NCBI GenBank assembly: GCA_015522695.1
Contig: WALT01000033.1
Coordinates: forward strand, 1 to 64,000
Reading direction: 5' to 3'
From: Nitrososphaerota archaeon
Lineage (GTDB): Archaea > Thermoproteota > Nitrososphaeria > Conexivisphaerales > Conexivisphaeraceae
Length of the DNA: 64,000 nucleotides
The position numbers and the translations under genes were made by a program. The notes below the pieces were generated by a model, which searched no databases, was not told the DNA's origin, and saw only the letters and a list, made by a program, of their open reading frames with translations. Below, piece after piece: positions 4,592 through 27,990 of the stretch. The first letter of the stretch is position 1, and each line of letters opens with the position of its first letter.

Positions 4592-5566
4592 TCACCTCCC
4601 GCGTGGACTTATTATAACGGGCTTATAAGGTTCAGGTCTTTTCGGCTTATGCTGGATCCACCACCTCCTCCAGTCGGATACAATCTCGATGACCTCCATC
4701 CCTATCCTCTTGAGGGCCTTCGCCGCCGGGCTATCTGGAAATGCCTCTATCAAGGGCTTCATCATCGCCATGCTTCTGGGGACTACATCATCGTATGGTA
4801 TTCTACCCATGATCTCGATGCCATTCTCCTTGGAGTATATCTCTATTTCCTCCGTGAGATCCTCTCGAATATCATATTTATTGATGACTATAGCCGAGGG
4901 CATCATGAAGTGTTTTGTCAGTGTATGTACACGTTTTAGATCGCTCAAGCTAGCTGGCGTCGGTTCAGCGACGAGGATGGCTATGTGCGCCCCGGCGAGG
5001 CTCGATATGACCTGACATCCCACCCCAGCTGCAGAGTCCAGGACTATGATCGTGTTCTCATTCGCTATGCTCTTAGCTACATCCTTTTCCTCCGTTACGA
5101 GCTTCCCCGTGTTAGGCCTGCCGGGATTCAATCTCGCGGATACCAGCGGGAACCCATAGCCGGTGTCCGCCAAGAGCACCTTTCCCGATTCCACCCTTTC
5201 CCTGACTATCGCTCCATCGATAGGGCATGCCAAGCTACATGTAGAACATCCCTCGCACAACACCGGACTTATCATATATCTACCGTCCTCCAGGAGGTGG
5301 ACAGCATCGTACGTGCACACATCGGCGCACACACCACATCGCACACACATATCGTCGACTATCTTGGCTATCATGGTGTCGGAATAGGGCTTCTCCTCCC
5401 TCCAACCGTCAACCCCAAGCACCAGATGTAGATTCGGTGCATCGGCGTCAGCATCGACGGCGACGACCTCCCTCCCGCTACGGGCGAGCATTATCGCCAC
5501 GGTAGAGGAAACGGTCGACTTTCCCACACCTCCTTTACCGCTAGCTATAGCGAGCTCAAGTGGCAA
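4592..5566 (-). CDS. MinD-superfamily P-loop ATPase with inserted 2[4Fe-4S] ferredoxin domain
   Basis: 324 residues from a TTG start. The deviant Walker A 'ASGKGGVGKSTVSS' is at residues 8-21 and the 'VDADADAPNLHLVLG' switch region at about 38-52. An inserted ferredoxin domain at about 70-110 has 'CVRCGVCADVC' and 'CEGCSTCSLAC', and later 'VLDSAAGVGCQV' forms the Walker B/switch II area. Such ATPases occur beside NifX-like proteins in archaea and are thought to move or insert Fe-S clusters, related to Mrp/Nbp35. It lies 1 nt downstream of a paralogue. The C-terminus has a basic Trp/Pro-rich tail. The function as an Fe-S carrier is inferred from the family and the operon. Confidence 0.85.
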   Translation of the reverse strand: MPLELAIASGKGGVGKSTVSSTVAIMLARSGREVVAVDADADAPNLHLVLGVDGWREEKPYSDTMIAKIVDDMCVRCGVCADVCTYDAVHLLEDGRYMISPVLCEGCSTCSLACPIDGAIVRERVESGKVLLADTGYGFPLVSARLNPGRPNTGKLVTEEKDVAKSIANENTIIVLDSAAGVGCQVISSLAGAHIAILVAEPTPASLSDLKRVHTLTKHFMMPSAIVINKYDIREDLTEEIEIYSKENGIEIMGRIPYDDVVPRSMAMMKPLIEAFPDSPAAKALKRIGMEVIEIVSDWRRWWIQHKPKRPEPYKPVIISPRGR

Positions 5567-5567
5567 T

Positions 5568-6449
5568 TCATAAAACCTCCCTCACGGTGTCGGCCAGCTT
5601 CCTGAGGGCTACCGCCGGTTTAGAGTCAGGTTTGGACAGAACTATCGGCTTCCCGGTGACGTAGGAGTCCACGACATCCCTCGAGTATGGAAGCCTGACG
5701 GCTATCCTAGCGTCATGCTTCTTCACGACTTCCTCCACAGAACCCTCGGATCCTATGCCAGACCTGTTGATCACAACCCATGATTCCAGGCCCATCGCTC
5801 CAGCAACCTCGAGGATCATGTCGAGGTCGTGTGCCCCTAGAGGTGTCGGCTCCGTGACGGCTAAGGTGAGCCTCGCTCCATCCAAAGCTGTTGACACGGT
5901 ATTGCTCGTGCCGGCGGCGGTGTCTATTAAATATAGGTTTGCATCCTCCGAGAGCGCCCTCCTCTTGGCCGCCACGACCACTGGAGGTGTATGCTCCTCA
6001 CCCTCCCTGAGCATTCCGGTCACGAGCGTCAGTTTGCCCCCATCCAAAGATATCACCGTCCTATAGGTGTAGCCTATCGTCCTCTGTCCTTCTATTATCG
6101 CATTGTCCGGACAGGCGAAGTAACAGCTGCGGCAGCCACTGCACAGCCTCGGGATCACCAATGGGGTCTTGTCCTTCGCAAGCATTATGGCCCCGGTGTC
6201 GCATACCTCAGCGCATATACCGCATTTGGTGCACCTACCGTAATCTATGAACGGCAACATCACGTTGACTGGTTGCTCATCCTCCAAGTTTGAGCTGAGG
6301 AGTATGTGATCGTCTGGGGCTTCGACGTCGAGATCGGCCAACAACAGATCTTCATCTGCCGCCAGCGCCGCCGCCACGTTAACAGCTACGGTGGACTTGC
6401 CCGTGCCGCCCTTTCCTCCGGTAACGGCAACTATCCTCCCCCTCATCAT
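5568..6449 (-). CDS. MinD-superfamily P-loop ATPase with inserted 2[4Fe-4S] ferredoxin domain (paralogue)
   Basis: 293 residues. Walker A is 'VTGGKGGTGKSTVAVN' near residue 10, then 'LLADLDVEAPDDHILL', a ferredoxin insert with 'CTKCGICAEVC' and 'CSGCRSCYFAC' at about residues 73-115, and 'YLIDTAAGTSNTV' further on. It shares the layout of the neighbouring ATPase and probably arose by duplication; the two may form a heterodimer, since MinD/Nbp35 proteins act as dimers across the nucleotide. The ATG overlaps the stop of the small upstream gene by 4 nt. A role in cluster assembly or transfer is inferred. Confidence 0.85.
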   Translation of the reverse strand: MMRGRIVAVTGGKGGTGKSTVAVNVAAALAADEDLLLADLDVEAPDDHILLSSNLEDEQPVNVMLPFIDYGRCTKCGICAEVCDTGAIMLAKDKTPLVIPRLCSGCRSCYFACPDNAIIEGQRTIGYTYRTVISLDGGKLTLVTGMLREGEEHTPPVVVAAKRRALSEDANLYLIDTAAGTSNTVSTALDGARLTLAVTEPTPLGAHDLDMILEVAGAMGLESWVVINRSGIGSEGSVEEVVKKHDARIAVRLPYSRDVVDSYVTGKPIVLSKPDSKPAVALRKLADTVREVL

Positions 6450-6844
6450 GCGTGGCCCTCGAGTATCCGCCCATATCTATCGTCCTTTATCACAGACCTG
6501 TTCAACTCTTGATCGCTGAGGTCCTTCGTCCTCTCGTAGACGTCATCCAGGATTTCCTTTATATCGTCATCTATCTCTGGAGGATCGCCACAGGAATATC
6601 GGAAGCATTTCCTCCCCTCGCCCTTTATCTTTATGGCACAGCCTTTAGAGGTCAAGTCATCTAAGATCTCAGGGATCTCCTCGATATAGAAACCGAAACT
6701 CTCACCTCTCACGGTCATCTCAGGGAGTAAGCGTTCTGCTCCCTCCCATGCGGCAAGGACCAACATCCTGCTGATCCTATATGGATGAAGACAATCGTTC
6801 CTATAGAGGAGATAAGCTACAGAACCCTTCAGAAGATCCCCCAT
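6446..6844 (-). CDS. Small unknown protein in the Fe-S/MinD operon
   Basis: 132 residues, family not recognised. The N-terminal half is helical and begins 'LLKGSVAYLLYRNDCLHPYRISRMLVLA', loosely like SocA/Panacea-type domains, though the similarity is too weak to name it. The middle, 'RGESFGFYIEEIPEILDDLTSKGCAIKI', has the look of a winged helix, and a 'KCFRYSCGD' pair of cysteines follows before an acidic helical tail. The placement, between DUF59 (13 nt upstream) and a MinD ATPase (4-nt overlap), suggests an accessory or sensory role in Fe-S handling. Confidence 0.65.
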   Translation of the reverse strand: MGDLLKGSVAYLLYRNDCLHPYRISRMLVLAAWEGAERLLPEMTVRGESFGFYIEEIPEILDDLTSKGCAIKIKGEGRKCFRYSCGDPPEIDDDIKEILDDVYERTKDLSDQELNRSVIKDDRYGRILEGHA

Positions 6845-6857
6845 CGCTTATCCCTCC

Positions 6858-7277
6858 TTAATGGATATCGCCCGTGTCAGCAGGTTCCTGCTGATATTCC
6901 TGCATCCTCTTCTGCCATTCCTCAACGACGTCGTAACCGTATATCTGCTTAAGCTGCTCCCTGCCCTCCTGCGTCACCCAATCCGGAGTCCAGGGCTCAT
7001 CCCAGACGAGCTCTACGGTGACGGACTTGGCTTCAGGTACCTTCTCCCACACTGTGCTCTCGGTCATGAGCGCGATCGTAGAAGCTATGGGACATCCTAC
7101 GGCTGTAAGGGTCATTTTTATCATGACATGACCCTCCTCGTCGATCTCCATACCCCTGATCAAGCCTAGATCCCAGACGCTTATCGGTATCTCTGGATCG
7201 TAAACATCCTTTAATGCAGCCACGATCTTCTCCCCGATCTGTCTCCTCCCTTCCTCGCTTAATGGCACACCGAACAC
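6858..7277 (-). CDS. DUF59/MIP18-family Fe-S assembly protein (SufT/PaaD-like)
   Basis: 139 residues. The DUF59 signature is clear: 'IVAALKDVYDPEIPISVWDLGLIRGMEID' at about 17-45 and 'MIKMTLTAVGCPIASTIALM' at about 53-72, containing the reactive cysteine. 'VELVWDEPWTPDWVTQEGR' completes the fold. Proteins of this family help mature Fe-S enzymes (SufT, Cia2/MIP18, PaaD). It is the first gene of the leftward operon with two ferredoxin-MinD ATPases and a NifX-like protein, which supports a cluster-assembly module. An AT-rich TATA-like stretch lies upstream around 7335-7345. A Glu/Gln-rich C-terminal tail of about 25 residues is extra. Confidence 0.88.
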   Translation of the reverse strand: MFGVPLSEEGRRQIGEKIVAALKDVYDPEIPISVWDLGLIRGMEIDEEGHVMIKMTLTAVGCPIASTIALMTESTVWEKVPEAKSVTVELVWDEPWTPDWVTQEGREQLKQIYGYDVVEEWQKRMQEYQQEPADTGDIH

Positions 7278-20697: not shown

Positions 20698-22794
20698 GTG
20701 GTGTTGCCAGATAGCATCATGGAGCTGTTCCTAGAACCTAGAAGTATAGCGGTCGTCGGCGCTTCCAGCGACTCCAGGAAACTTGGCTATCATGTGCTGA
20801 CGAACCTCAAGAAGGCGTTCGCTGGCACTGTCTATCCGGTGAACCCTAAGGGTGGCATCATACAGGGCCTAAGGGCGTACAGGAGCTTAGTGGAGCTGCC
20901 GGAATCCGTGGACCTCGCCGTCGTGGTGATACCGTCGGATAAGGTCTTGGGAGTCATCGAGGAGGCTGGCGAGGTCGGAATAAGGGCGGTCGTGGTCGAG
21001 AGCGGCGGTTTCGCTGAGGTCGGTAGAGCAGATCTCGAACGAGAGCTCATCAGGACTGCTTACAGATGGGGAATCAGGGTGGTAGGGCCCAACTGTATAG
21101 GCGTGTTCAATCCATCGCTGGGCCTGAACACCGCCTTCCTGCCTCCCGGCAGGATGAGGATGCCGAGACGAGGCGGCCTCTCCCTCGTCAGTCAGAGCGG
21201 GGCCATGATGGCTTCGATAATGGATTGGGCTGGATACGAGGATGTAGGCTTAGCGAAGGCCGTCAGCTTCGGCAACAAATCCGATATAGACGAGGTAGAC
21301 GTCCTTGAGTACCTCGCCGACGACGAAGACACGAAGGTCGTCTTCCTCTATCTTGAGGGATTCAAGAGGGGGCGAGGCCCAGCGTTCATCGCCATCTCAC
21401 GGAAGTTGACGGCCAAGAAACCGATGGTGGTCTACGTCGGTGGAAGGACGCAACGCGGAGCTGAGGCAGCGAAGAGTCACACAGCTGCGATCGCATCTCC
21501 ATATAGAATCATGAGGGGTATGTTAAGACAGGCTGGAGCGATAGAGGCATCCAGCCTTAGGGATGCTTTCAACGTGATAGTTGGCTTCGATAAACTCGGC
21601 GTCAGCACCAAGCCGGGACACAGGGTGGGGGTGATAACGGACGGCGGAGGGATAGGCGTGGCCTCGGTCGATGCGCTCGTGTCGAAGGACCTCGAGGTAC
21701 CGGTGTTCTCCCGTGATCTCCAGTCCGGAATCAAGGAGATACTGCCTCCAGTCGGCTCACCCACCAACCCCGTGGACCTCACCGGGAATGCCACAGATGA
21801 TATTTACGCCAGGGCCGTGGATCTCGTTGCAAGCTCCGGTGAGACGGATGCATTGTTGGTGACGATACTCGTACAAGTGCCATCGCTATCCGAGGATGTA
21901 GTGGATGGAATCGCCTACAATCACGGTGGATTACCGACGGTGGCCGTCACGGTCGGCGGCAAGTTCGCCGACAGGATAGCAAAGCGGCTGAAGGCCTCTG
22001 GCATACCTACATATTCGTCAGCCGAGGAGGCCGCGGAGGTCATCAAGGCCATCTTGGACTATGCTAACAGGCCCGTTAGACGATCTCCCAAGATCACGAG
22101 ATCATGGAGGAGGAACTCGATCGAACCCTTACTCCGATCAGCTGGCTCGGTGAGGTTGGACATCGCATACGATATCCTCGGCAAGTATGGGATCTCGGCT
22201 CCCAGGTCCCTGTTCGCATCGACCCCGGAAGGCGCTGTGAAGGCCGCGGAGGACGTGGGCTATCCCGTGGTCCTCAAGGTGTCAAGTCCCCAAATAGTGC
22301 ATAAGAGCGATGTCGGTGGTGTCGTCCTTGACCTTCACAGCTCAGAGGATGTCGAGAGAGCTTATGTGAGGATCATGAAGAGGATCTCATCGGCCGTTCC
22401 ACAGGCCATCATCGAAGGGGTAATCGTTCAAGGGATGGTCGAGGGAGGACTTGAGGCCTTTATTGGTGGATTTAGGGATGAGAGGCTCGGAGTGATCGTC
22501 GCAGCCGGTCTCGGGGGCACGACGGTAGAGCTGTTGAACGATGTGTCATTCAGATCTTATCCGGCCACGCTCGACGATTCCCTCGAGATGATCCATGAGA
22601 CCACACTTTCTAAAGCCCTCCAGGGCTTTAGGGGCATCTGTCCCTGCGACCCCATGTCCTTGGCCAGGATGACCCTGGACGTAGGTAGGATCATTTGGGA
22701 GAATGAGGAGATAGAAAGCGTCGACCTCAATCCGGTCATGGTCTATGCACATGGAGCTATGGTAGCTGACGCCAGGATAGTCCTCAGATCCTGA
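20698..22794 (+). CDS. ADP-forming acetyl/acyl-CoA synthetase, fused alpha-beta chain
   Basis: 698 residues. The alpha part (about 1-460) has the CoA-binding Rossmann domain 'SIAVVGASSDSRKLGYHVLTN' and two succinyl-CoA-synthetase-like domains with 'LVSQSGAMMASIMDWA' and the phosphohistidine motif 'AAKSHTAAIA' (His about 261). The beta part (about 480-695) is an ATP-grasp domain with 'LKVSSPQIVHKSDVGGVVLD' and 'EAFIGGFRDERLGVIVAAG'. It converts acyl-CoA, ADP and Pi to acid, CoA and ATP, the main substrate-level phosphorylation of fermentative archaea. Single-chain fusion is one of the known forms. Its 3' end overlaps a small convergent gene by 11 nt. Confidence 0.93.
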   Translation: MVLPDSIMELFLEPRSIAVVGASSDSRKLGYHVLTNLKKAFAGTVYPVNPKGGIIQGLRAYRSLVELPESVDLAVVVIPSDKVLGVIEEAGEVGIRAVVVESGGFAEVGRADLERELIRTAYRWGIRVVGPNCIGVFNPSLGLNTAFLPPGRMRMPRRGGLSLVSQSGAMMASIMDWAGYEDVGLAKAVSFGNKSDIDEVDVLEYLADDEDTKVVFLYLEGFKRGRGPAFIAISRKLTAKKPMVVYVGGRTQRGAEAAKSHTAAIASPYRIMRGMLRQAGAIEASSLRDAFNVIVGFDKLGVSTKPGHRVGVITDGGGIGVASVDALVSKDLEVPVFSRDLQSGIKEILPPVGSPTNPVDLTGNATDDIYARAVDLVASSGETDALLVTILVQVPSLSEDVVDGIAYNHGGLPTVAVTVGGKFADRIAKRLKASGIPTYSSAEEAAEVIKAILDYANRPVRRSPKITRSWRRNSIEPLLRSAGSVRLDIAYDILGKYGISAPRSLFASTPEGAVKAAEDVGYPVVLKVSSPQIVHKSDVGGVVLDLHSSEDVERAYVRIMKRISSAVPQAIIEGVIVQGMVEGGLEAFIGGFRDERLGVIVAAGLGGTTVELLNDVSFRSYPATLDDSLEMIHETTLSKALQGFRGICPCDPMSLARMTLDVGRIIWENEEIESVDLNPVMVYAHGAMVADARIVLRS

Positions 22795-22930
22795 GGGGCC
22801 TCTCCATGACCTTGGCACATTCATCCATACAAGTAGCCACACAGACGTTGTAGGAGTCCATTCCATGAATGTCGTCACAGTATTCTGAACACTTCATCTC
22901 ACAGTCGAGAAGACCTCCTAAGCCCTTCAT
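22784..22930 (-). CDS. 48-residue cysteine-rich helical hairpin protein, possible metal binder
   Basis: This short frame runs from ATG (22928-22930) to TGA (22784-22786). It encodes 48 residues with six Cys at 10, 14, 18, 30, 34 and 38, i.e. C-X3-C-X3-C twice, separated by 'DDIHGMDSYNV'. The i, i+4, i+8 spacing puts three thiols on one face of each of two helices joined by a short turn, like the cysteine faces of four-helix copper-storage (Csp/DUF326) proteins, though far smaller. Such regularity is unlikely by chance in a shadow frame. The Shine-Dalgarno is weak. It converges on the acyl-CoA synthetase gene. Function unknown; Cu, Zn or Fe-S binding is inferred. Confidence 0.65.
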   Translation of the reverse strand: MKGLGGLLDCEMKCSEYCDDIHGMDSYNVCVATCMDECAKVMERPLRI

Positions 22931-23036
22931 GCACGTCCAGCGATGAATCCACCCCCAATATAAGGCTCATCACCGCCGCCCAGCTACATCGGTTATATGA
23001 GAAACTTTAACATTCATGGAGCCCTAGAATGATATC

Positions 23037-23411
23037 ATGGGGGGCTTCACCGATATCCTCTCATGTGCTTCCTCCCCCCGGGAGAGATTGATGGGGGATA
23101 TCCTGAGGGTCCTTGGGCTCAGTCTGGGCAGGCTTTGGCTCGCTGAGCTTGCCGCAGAGATAGCAGCCTTTAGGGAGACATTGGGGTTCTCAGAACCTAC
23201 GAGTAGAAAGGAGCTCGTGGATGCGGTGATGTCGCTTGCTGGACTGGGCCTCGTCACCGTGGAGGAGAGGATACGTGCTACGTATAGCGGCGGGGAGAAC
23301 GATCTATTGGTCGGGGTGGTGGACTTCGATGAACTATCCAATGCCCTCATGGACGACGAGGCGTATAACAGATATAGATCGATATTGGACGGCATCTTCG
23401 GGAGGGGCTAA
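23037..23411 (+). CDS. Small unknown protein, possibly winged-helix
   Basis: 124 residues from ATG. It is helical at first ('LMGDILRVLGLSLGRLWLAELAAE'), then has a helix-turn-helix-like run 'TSRKELVDAVMSLAGLGLVTVEERI' with a beta wing, and a C-terminal helical tail. It resembles a winged-helix protein but I cannot assign a family. It converges with the broken ACT-domain gene, the two stops overlapping by 3 nt. The 106-nt gap before it contains only AT-rich promoter-like sequence. Confidence 0.5.
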   Translation: MGGFTDILSCASSPRERLMGDILRVLGLSLGRLWLAELAAEIAAFRETLGFSEPTSRKELVDAVMSLAGLGLVTVEERIRATYSGGENDLLVGVVDFDELSNALMDDEAYNRYRSILDGIFGRG

Positions 23412-23640
23412 CACCGCCTCCCCACCTCCAATATCGCATCCTCCAAGGTCGATACGCCCTGGTGACGTCCCTTCTATCCACGACGAGTATCGTATCGCTA
23501 TAACAGGAGATAATCTCAGTCAAGTTCACATCGGCCATCCATAACAGGTTCGTAATATATGAGATGAATCCAGGTGTGGCCTCGATCCCCTCCGGGCTCG
23601 TCAAGAGTCCGATAAGCGTACAATTCATCGTCAAAGGCAA
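23408..23640 (-). pseudogene. Broken ACT-domain protein gene
   Basis: The minus strand reads a good ACT-domain core: 'SPEGIEATPGFISYITNLL' then 'VNLTEIISCYSDTILVVD' with 'RRDVTRAY'. The frame then goes off, but the neighbouring frame continues as 'STLEDAILEVGRRC' to a stop at 23408. A single missing base near 23452 separates the two parts. Upstream, the N-terminal half expected for this kind of archaeal ACT regulator is absent or scrambled (stop at about 23689 in the same frame). So the gene is frameshifted and probably truncated. Confidence 0.55.
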
Positions 23641-23648
23641 CGAGGTAT

Positions 23649-24159
23649 ATGCTCGAGGCGAACGTCGAGACGAGCAGGTCCGTGCCCTTCACAGGTAAGG
23701 TGAGGGAGCTCGATTTGGCCAGGCTGGCGGCCCATGCTGTACTAGAAGGCGACCTGGGATTTCCACGAGCCACAATCCTGGAGATGGACGGTGAAGACCC
23801 CAACAGTTTTCATGGGCCCAGATGGAGGGGGATCATGTCCGTGTTTGGGCCCCGAGATGATGGGCACTGGGGAGGTTGCAACGGTGTCCGAGAACCCATG
23901 GGCATCTGTGCTGAATTGGCTCTCCGCACCGCCGAACGGGCTCCCGCGATCCGGCTCGATGATAATGATCTATGGTCTAGATGGAAGGACGAGGCCGCCG
24001 GACGGCATTGTCCATGGGTCTGAGGCCTGTGAGCCTCGAGGGTGCAGAGAGGTTGGAGGGCTGAAAATACCATCTGAACCCGTGGCCGTTGAGGAGCTTG
24101 AGATCAGGTCATCCGTCGATGCTCATCACGGGTGGATGCATGTAATGGCTGGATCGTAG
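23649..24159 (+). pseudogene. Degenerate coding region, two overlapping frames, unrecognised
   Basis: Two overlapping plus-strand frames (23649-24023 and 23791-24159) each look protein-like in part. The first has 'KVRELDLARLAAHAVLEGDLG' and 'RATILEMDGEDPN'. The second continues with 'TVFMGPDGGG' and 'MMGTGEVATVSENPWASVLN'. A one-base shift around 23795-23810 would join them into about 170 residues. I recognise no family. This could be a decayed gene, or chance open frames opposite the lost part of the ACT gene. The following 210 nt to 24369 hold no gene but have a TATA-like GCTTAAAGG near 24308. Confidence 0.3.
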
Positions 24160-24369
24160 GCTGAGAAGGCTAGCGGCAGATAACCTCGTGCCGATGATAA
24201 TGGATTCCAGACCCGAAGCCACGTAGTGCTACCAGCAGGTTCTCAGCGTTAGCTCTTGGAGGAACTAGTTAGGCGACGGTTGCATAAATTATTACTGGCC
24301 AAGAATGCTTAAAGGATATTACCGTAGCTTTGTCTCCGGATCTATGAGGTTAGGGGGTGGATAGTAGAC

Positions 24370-26034
24370 GTGTTGAGGAATAGTAGGATTTGGGCACTAA
24401 TATTAGTGGTTGCCGTTCTTATATCTTTGGCATCAGTAGCGATTTACACCAGCCCTCACTTCTCGGGTCGATATCGCTCTCTAGAGTTCTCAATACCTGA
24501 TTGTAGGGCTGTGCAGTTGGCTACGTGGTTTAGAACCGATTTCCCGCTTGCCTCTCTATCGTTCAATTTTAGCTCGATGAACAGTAGCTTAGCGCTATAT
24601 ACCCCTGAAGGAAGAATGCTCGTATACGAACCTAGCGGCTATATCTCTCTGATAGACAGGAGCTTGTTCGATGGTAATTGGCACTTTCTGACGGCTAGTT
24701 TTGGGCGATCGGTTAGTGTTTCAGTAGATGGGCTTCAGGCATACCAGGGAGAGGGACCAGGCGACTTGTGTAAACTAGCCGTAAAGCACTCCGGAGATCT
24801 ACGTTTGGGATGTCTTAAGGTTTGGGGATCTGAGGGTATGCTTCTACTCGCAAAGGGTGCATGCCCAAGAAGCTTTACAATTAAGACTAGCCCTATGCCT
24901 GGAATGCCGCTAGGTTTAGCTGATCTAGCATCCGTTTACCTACCCGGCTCGGACAGGTTTCTACTATTTGGTGGCTACACTAGGGGTGGTGGCAATCCGA
25001 CCAGTGTGGCTTTAGCGTATGATGTCAAAAGTGGTGTATGGCAATACCTTGCAAGGATGCCGCTAGCAGAGTGGGGTGGCTGCAGCTGCTACTATCCAGA
25101 CAACAGGAAAGTATATTTGCTCGGAGGGCTCAGCCTGAGGGGGAACATCTCTGGTGTCTACGAGTACGATCCATTCTTTAACTATTGGCGAGTGATACCA
25201 GGCCCCAGCATTTTCCGAGGAAGCATGTGCGCATACTCGCCTGACGATGGCAGAATACACGTGATAACAGAGAGGAACGGTAGACCGCTACATCTCGTAT
25301 TCGATCCCATTAACGCCTCTTTTTCAGAGGCACAGCCTCCACCAGTGCCAGTGAGGTGGGGCTCGCTAACCTATTACGACAGAAAGCTCTACTTAGTCAG
25401 CGGTACGAATCCGCGGACGGGTCATAAAGAGCCCCACCTAATAGTATATGACATAAGTAGCGATGAATGGGAGCTTAGGACGCCACCTCCCTTCCGCGGT
25501 CATGGCATGGTGAGAGAGTGGGGCTGGCTGGACGGGAGACTATATGTCGTTGATTTCTACGATGGCCAGAGGTTCTATGGTCGCGTGTACAGCTATAATG
25601 AATCCAGCGGTGGGTGGAGACTTGAAGGATACACGCTTTACCCAAGGGATGGTGTTGCTGGCGGCATAACTAAGGATGGATTTGTGCTTATCTTTGGGGG
25701 CAGAAACTCCAGGAGGAGCCCACGTGGACTTAGCTATGTAGAAAAGCTGGAGTTTCTAGGGACCATGTTGGTTGCCTTCTCGCCGAGCAGCAATGTATAC
25801 GGTTTTGTGGGAGACAAAATAAATATCTTGGTGCTATCGGATGGTAGGCAAGCCGACGGGCATAGCATAACAGTATACTTAGACGGCAACCCGCACTCGA
25901 AGCTAGAAGCGATTGATGGCAGAGCCTCTCTAATAGTTACGAAACCAGGAGTCTACAGGTTTAAGTGTTGCGGAGCATGGTCTAACAAGATGGTAGTAGT
26001 TCCTAATCGACGATTACAAGCTCGAGCAGGCTAG
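24370..26034 (+). CDS. Exported or membrane-anchored LamG/Kelch-repeat protein of foreign-looking composition
   Basis: 554 residues from GTG. One hydrophobic span (about 8-28) can act as signal or anchor. Residues 30-160 look like a LamG/concanavalin-type jelly roll ('FDGNWHFLTASFGRSVSVSVDG'). Residues 190-460 contain about five Kelch beta-propeller blades ('RFLLFGGYTRGGG', 'KVYLLGGLSLRGN', 'RLYVVDFYDG', 'FVLIFGGRNSRR'), and the end is an Ig-like strand set. The parts suggest binding of carbohydrate or protein at the cell surface. Codons are noticeably richer in A/T third positions than in neighbouring genes, hinting at acquisition. Neighbours on both sides are decayed. Confidence 0.75.
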   Translation: MLRNSRIWALILVVAVLISLASVAIYTSPHFSGRYRSLEFSIPDCRAVQLATWFRTDFPLASLSFNFSSMNSSLALYTPEGRMLVYEPSGYISLIDRSLFDGNWHFLTASFGRSVSVSVDGLQAYQGEGPGDLCKLAVKHSGDLRLGCLKVWGSEGMLLLAKGACPRSFTIKTSPMPGMPLGLADLASVYLPGSDRFLLFGGYTRGGGNPTSVALAYDVKSGVWQYLARMPLAEWGGCSCYYPDNRKVYLLGGLSLRGNISGVYEYDPFFNYWRVIPGPSIFRGSMCAYSPDDGRIHVITERNGRPLHLVFDPINASFSEAQPPPVPVRWGSLTYYDRKLYLVSGTNPRTGHKEPHLIVYDISSDEWELRTPPPFRGHGMVREWGWLDGRLYVVDFYDGQRFYGRVYSYNESSGGWRLEGYTLYPRDGVAGGITKDGFVLIFGGRNSRRSPRGLSYVEKLEFLGTMLVAFSPSSNVYGFVGDKINILVLSDGRQADGHSITVYLDGNPHSKLEAIDGRASLIVTKPGVYRFKCCGAWSNKMVVVPNRRLQARAG

Positions 26035-26281
26035 TCGGCCTCAGTTGGATTACCCGACCCGCCCGAGACATGTATTTCTCTATTCCCGGAGGGCCTATAG
26101 ATGCCCCTAGTGAACAAGAATTTGTAAGCAGCACCACGCCAGCTATGACAACGCCGCCGTGGACATGTCCGGCCAGCACCCTTAAGCCTGACCTTGCGTC
26201 CACAGCCGTGTTCGGGTCGTGCGCAACGACTAGCCCATCAGCGCTGGGATCTCCTCGAGTCCCTCCAGTCGAGGCCTGTTA
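26003..26281 (-). pseudogene. Remnant of a metallophosphoesterase (C-terminal part)
   Basis: The minus strand carries the end of a calcineurin-like phosphoesterase: 'LVVAHDPNT', then 'LRVLAGHVHGGVV' with the GH-x-HGG metal motif, and 'GPPGIEKYMSRAG'. The frame meets a stop at 26279-26281, and the N-terminal motifs (D-x-H, GDxxD, GNHD) are not found upstream. Other-frame debris such as 'GHITGLDWRDSR' lies between 26281 and 26400. The 3' end overlaps the Kelch gene by 32 nt. No canonical start fits except a GTG at 26203. Confidence 0.55.
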
Positions 26282-26406
26282 TATGTCCCGTGCATATGTC
26301 AGCTGTCGTATCCTGTCCCTTGACCACGAATCCGTTTACAAGATCGTGGCGGTCCGATCGGTATGGAGGGAACGATTATAACTCCTCAATTCCTCCCGGG
26401 CACGAG

Positions 26407-27990
26407 ATGAAGGTTAGCACAGTAGCCGAGATGCGTGAGATGGACTCGACTGCGGTCGAGGGATATGGCATCGATCACGAGATCCTCATGGAAAACGCAG
26501 GACATGCCGTCTACTTCGTCATACTCAAGGAGTTCGGGGTGAGGGACAGAAAGTTCGCGGTGGTGGCTGGGCTGGGCAACAACGGTGGAGATGCCCTCGT
26601 GGTGGCGAGGAAATTGTACTCGAACGGCGCTCACGTGGTGGTGTTCATAGTGGGTGATGCATCTAAGTATCGAGGACCGGCACAGAAGAACTATGAGATC
26701 GTCAAGAAATTCGGGTTGGATATCCTCACGATATCGAGCGAGGAGGATTTAGAGAGATTGATCGAGGCGCTCGGATGGTGTGACGCGGTCGTGGATGGTC
26801 TATTCGGGACGGGATTATCGAGGGAGATAACCGGAGTGTACAGGCGCATCATCGAGGAGATGAACAAATCCGGGAAGAAGGTGTTCAGCGTGGACATACC
26901 TTCTGGTGTAGGTGGCGACGATGGGCTCGTGTACGGCGTCGCCGTCAAGGCGAGCTCCACTGTAACCTTCGGGCTCCCGAAGGTGGGCAACGTATTATAT
27001 CCCGGTTATCATTACGTGGGTAAACTCTACGTTTCACATATATCCTTCCCTCCAGAACTCTACTCTAAGGGAAGCATGAAGGCTGAGATAAACACGCCGA
27101 TGAAGTTCCCTGAAAGGTTGGAATGGGGACATAAGGGGACGTTCGGCAAATTGCTCGTCGTGGCTGGTGCGAGGAACTATTACGGTGCCCCTTACTTCTC
27201 AGCCCTCTCATTCCTTAAGGCAGGAGGGGGTTACTCGAGGCTCGCAGCCCCCAGATCCATCATACCATATATAGCGGCCAAGGCCAGCGAGATCGTGTAC
27301 ATACCGTTGGATGAGACGCCCAACGGTACGCTCGCGAAGGCGAACGAGGATAGGATAATCAACCTGATAGAGGAATATGGGATAGATATCGCGATAATGG
27401 GACCTGGCGTCTCGCTGGATGGGGAGACACAGGGGTTGGTCAGGAGCCTTACACCCAAGATAGATGTGCCTTTGGTGGTAGACGGCGATGGACTAACGGC
27501 GATCTCATCGGATCTAGAGTCGGTGAAGTCCAGGAACAAGCCCACAGTGCTCACACCACACCCGGTCGAGATGTCCAGGCTCATCGGCAGGAGCGTCAGG
27601 GAGATAGATGCGAAGAAGGTCGAGGTGGCCAGGGAGGCAGCTGAATCCCTGAATTCCTACATAGTTCTGAAGGGTGCACACAGCCTGGTAGCATATCCAA
27701 ATGGCGATATTTATGTGAACACGAGCGGGAACAGTGGGATGGCCACGGCTGGCTCGGGCGATGTTCTAACGGGCACGATAGCCGCGATGTATGGACTGGG
27801 TCTGGAAATCGGCGGTGCTGTCAGGATGGGCGTGTTCGTACACGGCTTAGCCGGCGACATCGCTGCCACGTCGAAGGGTGAGGATGGGATAACGTCGGAG
27901 GACGTGCTCCAATGGCTCCCGATGGCGATGAAGGCCCTGAGGGAGAGGTTCGATGATATTTCATCGAGATATCTACCTGAGGTGATCTAG
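26407..27990 (+). CDS. nnr: Bifunctional NAD(P)H-hydrate epimerase/ADP-dependent dehydratase
   Basis: 527 residues from ATG at 26407. The frame is open further upstream, but that part is not family-like. The YjeF_N epimerase domain (about 1-215) has 'LMENAGHAVYFVIL', 'VVAGLGNNGGDALVVARKL' and 'VVDGLFGTGLSREITG'. The C-terminal ribokinase-like dehydratase domain (about 225-510) has 'GTFGKLLVVAGARNYYGAPY', 'VLTPHPVEMSRL' and 'GMATAGSGDVLTGTIAAM'. It repairs NADHX and NADPHX formed by heat or enzymes, important in thermophiles. The following alcohol dehydrogenase gene starts 1 nt after its stop. Confidence 0.93.
   Translation: MKVSTVAEMREMDSTAVEGYGIDHEILMENAGHAVYFVILKEFGVRDRKFAVVAGLGNNGGDALVVARKLYSNGAHVVVFIVGDASKYRGPAQKNYEIVKKFGLDILTISSEEDLERLIEALGWCDAVVDGLFGTGLSREITGVYRRIIEEMNKSGKKVFSVDIPSGVGGDDGLVYGVAVKASSTVTFGLPKVGNVLYPGYHYVGKLYVSHISFPPELYSKGSMKAEINTPMKFPERLEWGHKGTFGKLLVVAGARNYYGAPYFSALSFLKAGGGYSRLAAPRSIIPYIAAKASEIVYIPLDETPNGTLAKANEDRIINLIEEYGIDIAIMGPGVSLDGETQGLVRSLTPKIDVPLVVDGDGLTAISSDLESVKSRNKPTVLTPHPVEMSRLIGRSVREIDAKKVEVAREAAESLNSYIVLKGAHSLVAYPNGDIYVNTSGNSGMATAGSGDVLTGTIAAMYGLGLEIGGAVRMGVFVHGLAGDIAATSKGEDGITSEDVLQWLPMAMKALRERFDDISSRYLPEVI

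Follow-up and report, generated by a model that had tools for sequence, protein, structure and literature searches.

An apparently lineage-specific 48-residue archaeal micro-protein with six conserved cysteines, predicted to fold as a helical hairpin and probably cross-linked by a disulfide ladder

A short open reading frame with six regularly spaced cysteine codons runs, on the minus strand, into the end of an acyl-CoA synthetase gene in a 64,000-nt stretch of archaeal DNA (the window, i.e., the whole stretch analysed). The locus raises the question of whether this frame is a gene at all and, if it is, what its cysteines are for. The features needed to follow the argument are as follows.

20698..22794, plus strand: acd-type ADP-forming acyl-CoA synthetase (Pfam ATP-grasp_5, Succ_CoA_lig, CoA_binding_2); convergent with the micro-protein gene, 11-nt 3' overlap; not a conserved neighbour
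22784..22930, minus strand: gene of the 48-aa six-cysteine micro-protein, a predicted helical hairpin (ATG start, stop codon at 22784-22786; evidence from translation, orthologues in two related genomes (G001 and G002), dN/dS and an AlphaFold2 model)
22817..22903, minus strand: cysteine ladder motif CX3CX3C-X11-CX3CX3C (C10 to C38), fully conserved (pattern search and alignment)
22959..22964, minus strand: TATA-box-like hexamer CTTATA, 34 to 29 nt 5' of the micro-protein ATG
26407..27990, plus strand: nnr (YjeF_N / NAD(P)H-hydrate dehydratase; Pfam; tblastn synteny, 67% identity), a conserved divergent neighbour

Translation from the minus-strand ATG yields MKGLGGLLDCEMKCSEYCDDIHGMDSYNVCVATCMDECAKVMERPLRI (48 aa), with cysteines at positions 10, 14, 18, 30, 34 and 38. 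The original prediction had read the frame and its cysteines exactly in this way, and its 11-nt convergent overlap with the synthetase agrees with the coordinates of both genes. Only 0.7% of random window sites score as high as the hexamer CTTATA at -34; the upstream regions of the relatives' copies are weaker (13% and 53% of random sites are as good), and the promoter support is thus confined to the window locus. The position of the hexamer, 34 nt before the ATG, would imply a short-leader or leaderless transcript. The gene was treated as monocistronic, because every copy stands alone and points away from nnr.

When 61 related genomes were searched in six frames, orthologues came to light in two that belong to hot-spring archaea of the same family: G001 (E 1e-11, 41%) and G002 (E 3e-12, 45%; locus WYEM01000060.1, 'Thaumarchaeota archaeon isolate EvPrim.Bin14'). 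The G001 assembly is a single 1.59-Mb contig, which seems to resemble Conexivisphaera calida and which we take to be Conexivisphaera. A third relative (G003, only 55% complete) was without a credible match. All six cysteines align gap-free in the three proteins with identical spacing, so that the conservation on which the original prediction had staked its claim is fully kept in family-level relatives; 18 alignment columns are invariant, at an identity of 40-44%, including LGGL, DCE, YN, ECA and P45. Between G001 and G002 the dN/dS ratio is about 0.25 (NG86, aligned codons; Fisher p about 0.008), i.e., synonymous change exceeds nonsynonymous change and the ratio is well away from one, the value named beforehand as speaking against a gene. 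For the pairs that include the window copy, synonymous sites are saturated as against a pN of 0.33-0.36 (NG86; p about 1e-6 and 7e-6), and changes relative to the window copy at first, second and third codon positions number 21:11:30 and 16:11:31, the third positions varying most. The reverse frames are open in G001 and G002 across this short stretch and contain stops in the window copy.

These data bear on the reading of the frame as an accident, antisense to the end of acd and the downstream spacer. Its shortness, its 11-nt overlap with acd and the abundance of such frames in single-genome ORF lists would suit that reading; the orthologues (E about 1e-11) and their retained cysteine spacing, an orthologous neighbourhood that lacks acd and the purifying selection speak against it, as does the result that no RNA family or tRNA accounts for the conservation. 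An RNA explanation was rejected on the latter ground (no Rfam family, no tRNA), and no phage families were matched. The comparative evidence all but refutes a chance frame, which we regard as hardly credible; judged from sequence comparison, ORF 22784-22930 is a real, functional gene of a Conexivisphaera-related archaeon, its orthology and conservation being established.

The regularity of the spacing is itself beyond chance, as had been proposed: the strict cysteine pattern at the DNA level has a single match in the window, whereas 100 dinucleotide shuffles produced none; 9.6 Mb of simulated sequence contained no instance of the relaxed pattern (X7-15 loop, stop-free); and both relatives retain the spacing. 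In other genomes of the class, low-complexity repeats with a 12-nt period also satisfy the bare DNA pattern, and the pattern alone is therefore no evidence. Such repeats occur in many genomes of the class Nitrososphaeria (e.g., at L080, L088, L090 and L094) and are a trap for pattern-only searches; the remaining matches of the DNA scan look like them and were set aside.

Across 400 class-level and 398 phylum-level genomes, profile (HMM) searches recovered three confident members only (E 2e-29 to 3e-30), the next-best match having an E of 0.002 on short fragments, several of them with stops. Apart from such fragments (E at least 0.002), nothing outside the archaeal family was found by these profile searches, by single-protein search of the 398 phylum genomes, or in viral contigs, plasmids and genome contigs, and none of the sixteen genomes searched from sister families within the order had the micro-protein. 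It appears to be a lineage-specific and uncharacterised archaeal family.

The neighbourhood gives little reason to connect this family with the synthetase. In G001 and G002 the micro-protein gene directly adjoins nnr, from which it diverges, and converges with a TatD-like gene (so named from reading of the sequence); in the window 3.4 kb lie between it and nnr, and its orientation towards nnr is the same in all three genomes. As nnr is faced in all three and the other neighbours differ, the overlap with acd is lineage-specific. The best acd matches in the relatives sit elsewhere, away from the micro-protein copies, which are flanked by nnr and the TatD-like gene; functional coupling to acd was accordingly rejected, and the link to acd suggested at the outset is not borne out. 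The interval that separates the micro-protein gene from nnr in the window (22931-26406) contains two orphan ORFs (23037-23411 and 23649-24023, no Pfam/PHROG match) and, at 24370-26034, the gene of a Kelch-repeat protein whose N-terminus has a hydrophobic segment. A counterpart of this 3.4-kb stretch was not found by tblastn in 20-kb regions of the two relatives, and it looks, for this reason, like a lineage-specific insertion. Elsewhere in the window (4592-7277, minus strand) two adjoining genes for MinD/Mrp-like P-loop ATPases were seen, in both of which a ferredoxin-type cluster domain appears to be inserted; upstream of them lie a small gene and one of DUF59/PaaD type (all named from reading of the sequence).

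AlphaFold2, supplied with a two-row alignment (the window protein and the L073 row, the third orthologue being left out), returned a confident antiparallel helical hairpin with helices at residues 5-20 and 24-43 (mean pLDDT 82; 92-94 over residues 11-40), and a single-sequence run gave the same hairpin and helices. The two cysteine-lined helices first imagined from the spacing thus reappear as a structure prediction. Foldseek ranked Nigellin-1.1 (2NB2) first among PDB structures (rmsd 1.3 over 36 columns; TM 0.63 query / 0.76 target; probability 0.87, E 1.8), a match that is suggestive only, since its E exceeds 1, as is to be expected of a hairpin this short (48 aa). Further matches include other CX3C disulfide hairpins, among them VBP-8, vicilin leader peptides and Tim9/Tim10 (2bsk); a Csp (copper storage protein) structure was not among the fold matches.

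2NB2 is a six-cysteine (6C) alpha-hairpinin, a class defined by the motif CX3CX3C-X4-20-CX3CX3C, with X11 in 64 plant peptides (PMC11591084). All three archaeal proteins carry exactly this motif, with X11 and without further cysteines, and are of similar size; a helix-loop-helix architecture is predicted for the window protein, with 2NB2 as the best PDB match. The plant alpha-hairpinins differ in being defence peptides, cut from secreted precursors with signal peptides and of proven or predicted antimicrobial activity, whereas a hydrophobic leader was not found by inspection at the micro-protein N-terminus (MKGLGGLLDCEMKC), no signal peptide is evident, and its net charge is -4. With no detectable sequence homology, no signal peptide and an archaeal origin, the micro-protein is best described as a structural analogue of the 6C alpha-hairpinins and not as a member.

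Three other disulfide hairpins invite comparison. The olive pollen allergen Ole e 6 (PF09253, 1SS3), an acidic protein of about 50 residues with six cysteines and two antiparallel helices (PMC8198727), shares acidity, size, helices and two CX3CX3C stretches with the micro-protein and differs in being a plant pollen protein. When PDB sequences were searched with a profile, Ole e 6 alone was matched, on both of its CX3CX3C stretches and no better than chance (E 4.6); PF09253 was matched neither by the micro-protein in hmmscan nor in its genome at E 10. The fungal and insect hairpin loop peptides (HLPs) have six mirror-symmetric cysteines, and their two helices are linked by three nested disulfides (PMC13357843); they were likened to the micro-protein by description only. 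These eukaryotic, secreted peptides are longer (about 85 aa, signal peptide included), uncharged and highly hydrophobic. The disulfide-linked helical hairpin of the small Tim proteins (Tim9/Tim10, twin CX3C) is shared with the micro-protein model. Small Tims have two disulfides and longer helices, and form hexameric mitochondrial chaperones. No zf-Tim10_DDP or CHCH-type Pfam profile was matched by the micro-protein; the sole sub-threshold match, to TIL (trypsin-inhibitor-like, E 0.087), was rejected as probably due to mere cysteine content.

In the predicted hairpin, the cysteines that line one face of helix 1 would oppose the three of helix 2, and three nested rungs would most likely form, C10-C38, C14-C34 and C18-C30, the positions in each pair summing to 48. 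Four-cysteine alpha-hairpinins pair 1-4 and 2-3 (PMC7191063), which by extension would give 1-6, 2-5 and 3-4 here. The organism's own protein disulfide oxidoreductase (PDO) would introduce the disulfides in the cytosol, and the ladder would take the place of the normal hydrophobic core in a heat-stable mini-protein; as the inner face is mostly cysteine, the fold is probably ladder-dependent. Outside the cysteine strip, helix 2 has four positions that are hydrophobic in all three proteins (Tyr27, Val/Met31, Met/Ile35 and Met/Leu42), and this strip would be left free to dimerise or to bind a partner protein, which suggests a binding or regulatory role and not that of an enzyme. For the predicted hairpin we infer the disulfide state, the pairing and the binding function, and consider it probable, with some reserve, that the micro-protein is a cytosolic structural disulfide-ladder hairpin serving as a binding module.

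The genome offers a suitable setting. It encodes a PDO (TIGR02187, 223 bits, cut-off 185), the presence of which marks disulfide-rich thermophiles (PMC3177088), and a reverse gyrase (1248 bits); together they fit a thermophile with cytosolic disulfides. One contig carries both genes, at a distance of about 17 kb (L109 and L111; G000 contig C16, 1081-1704 and 18769-22455). A second topoisomerase I-like stretch (L112 and L113; G000 contig C1, 12557-14026) is below the cut-off against the reverse gyrase profile. Against the ladder stands the report that Conexivisphaeraceae are anaerobes (PMC10833072), and reduced cysteines could bind metal.

Two metal-binding readings were weighed. The original prediction had likened the spacing to the helices of copper storage proteins, and two reduced hairpins, with 12 thiols between them, could indeed pair into a cysteine-lined four-helix bundle that would store Cu(I) as a minimal counterpart of Csp or buffer another thiophilic metal; the conserved hydrophobic strip beside the cysteine strip would suit such dimerisation. 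Csp3 likewise binds Cu(I) by helix CXXXC pairs facing a shared core, in a four-helix bundle with 18-19 free-thiol cysteines and a conserved histidine (PMC5171941). The helix-lining CXXXC is common to Csp1/Csp3 (DUF326, PF03860) and the micro-protein, which by contrast has two predicted helices per chain and no conserved histidine. The DUF326/Csp profile matched neither the micro-protein nor anything in its genome, no Csp appeared among the fold matches, a copper-exporting P1B-ATPase above the curated cut-off was found in none of the three genomes, and the neighbouring genes are not metal genes. Moreover, a mirror-symmetric cysteine register is what a disulfide ladder requires. With PDO and reverse gyrase present and both DUF326 and an above-cut-off copper P1B-ATPase missing, disulfides are favoured over copper storage, which is disfavoured; we consider the reduced metal-binding dimer unlikely, and a disulfide hairpin of the six-cysteine alpha-hairpinin or Ole e 6 type is the better match.

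Four to six of the cysteines might instead ligate an iron-sulfur cluster or zinc in a small electron carrier or regulator. Small cysteine-rich archaeal proteins are often metal binding, e.g., the haloarchaeal zinc-finger micro-proteins, and the reported anaerobic life of the family would fit. The micro-protein, however, lacks a CXXC knuckle and matches no Pfam/NCBIfam family, be it ferredoxin, zinc ribbon or another; the fold predicted for it is simply a helical hairpin, and its nearest cysteine-bearing fold matches are disulfide hairpins; this reading appears rather improbable. A ladder that opens and closes as a PDO-linked redox buffer or switch, e.g., in control of partner binding, would draw on the PDO in the genome and on six conserved cysteines beside a hydrophobic strip that reduction could rearrange. 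The CXXC redox motif is missing, however, and a structural role is described for nested disulfides in alpha-hairpins (PMC7191063), which makes a reversible thiol-disulfide role very unlikely in our estimation.

The structural disulfide ladder is thus kept as the working model. It may be that an independently evolved, three-rung, mirror-symmetric CX3CX3C disulfide hairpin, specific to this archaeal lineage, is used in the cytosol of an anaerobic thermophile as a heat-stable binding or redox-switch module, a proposal that we make tentatively while leaning slightly against it. If the ladder is right, the protein would be a prokaryotic, cytosolic example of a fold so far reported, in the literature found, for secreted peptides of plants, fungi and insects, and would add an apparently uncharacterised family to the archaeal micro-proteins. 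With three nested disulfides in 48 residues, such a thermophile protein would be a compact scaffold for engineering and an easy PDO substrate for studies of archaeal oxidative folding, and would indicate that in a disulfide-permissive cytosol a cysteine ladder can largely replace a hydrophobic core.
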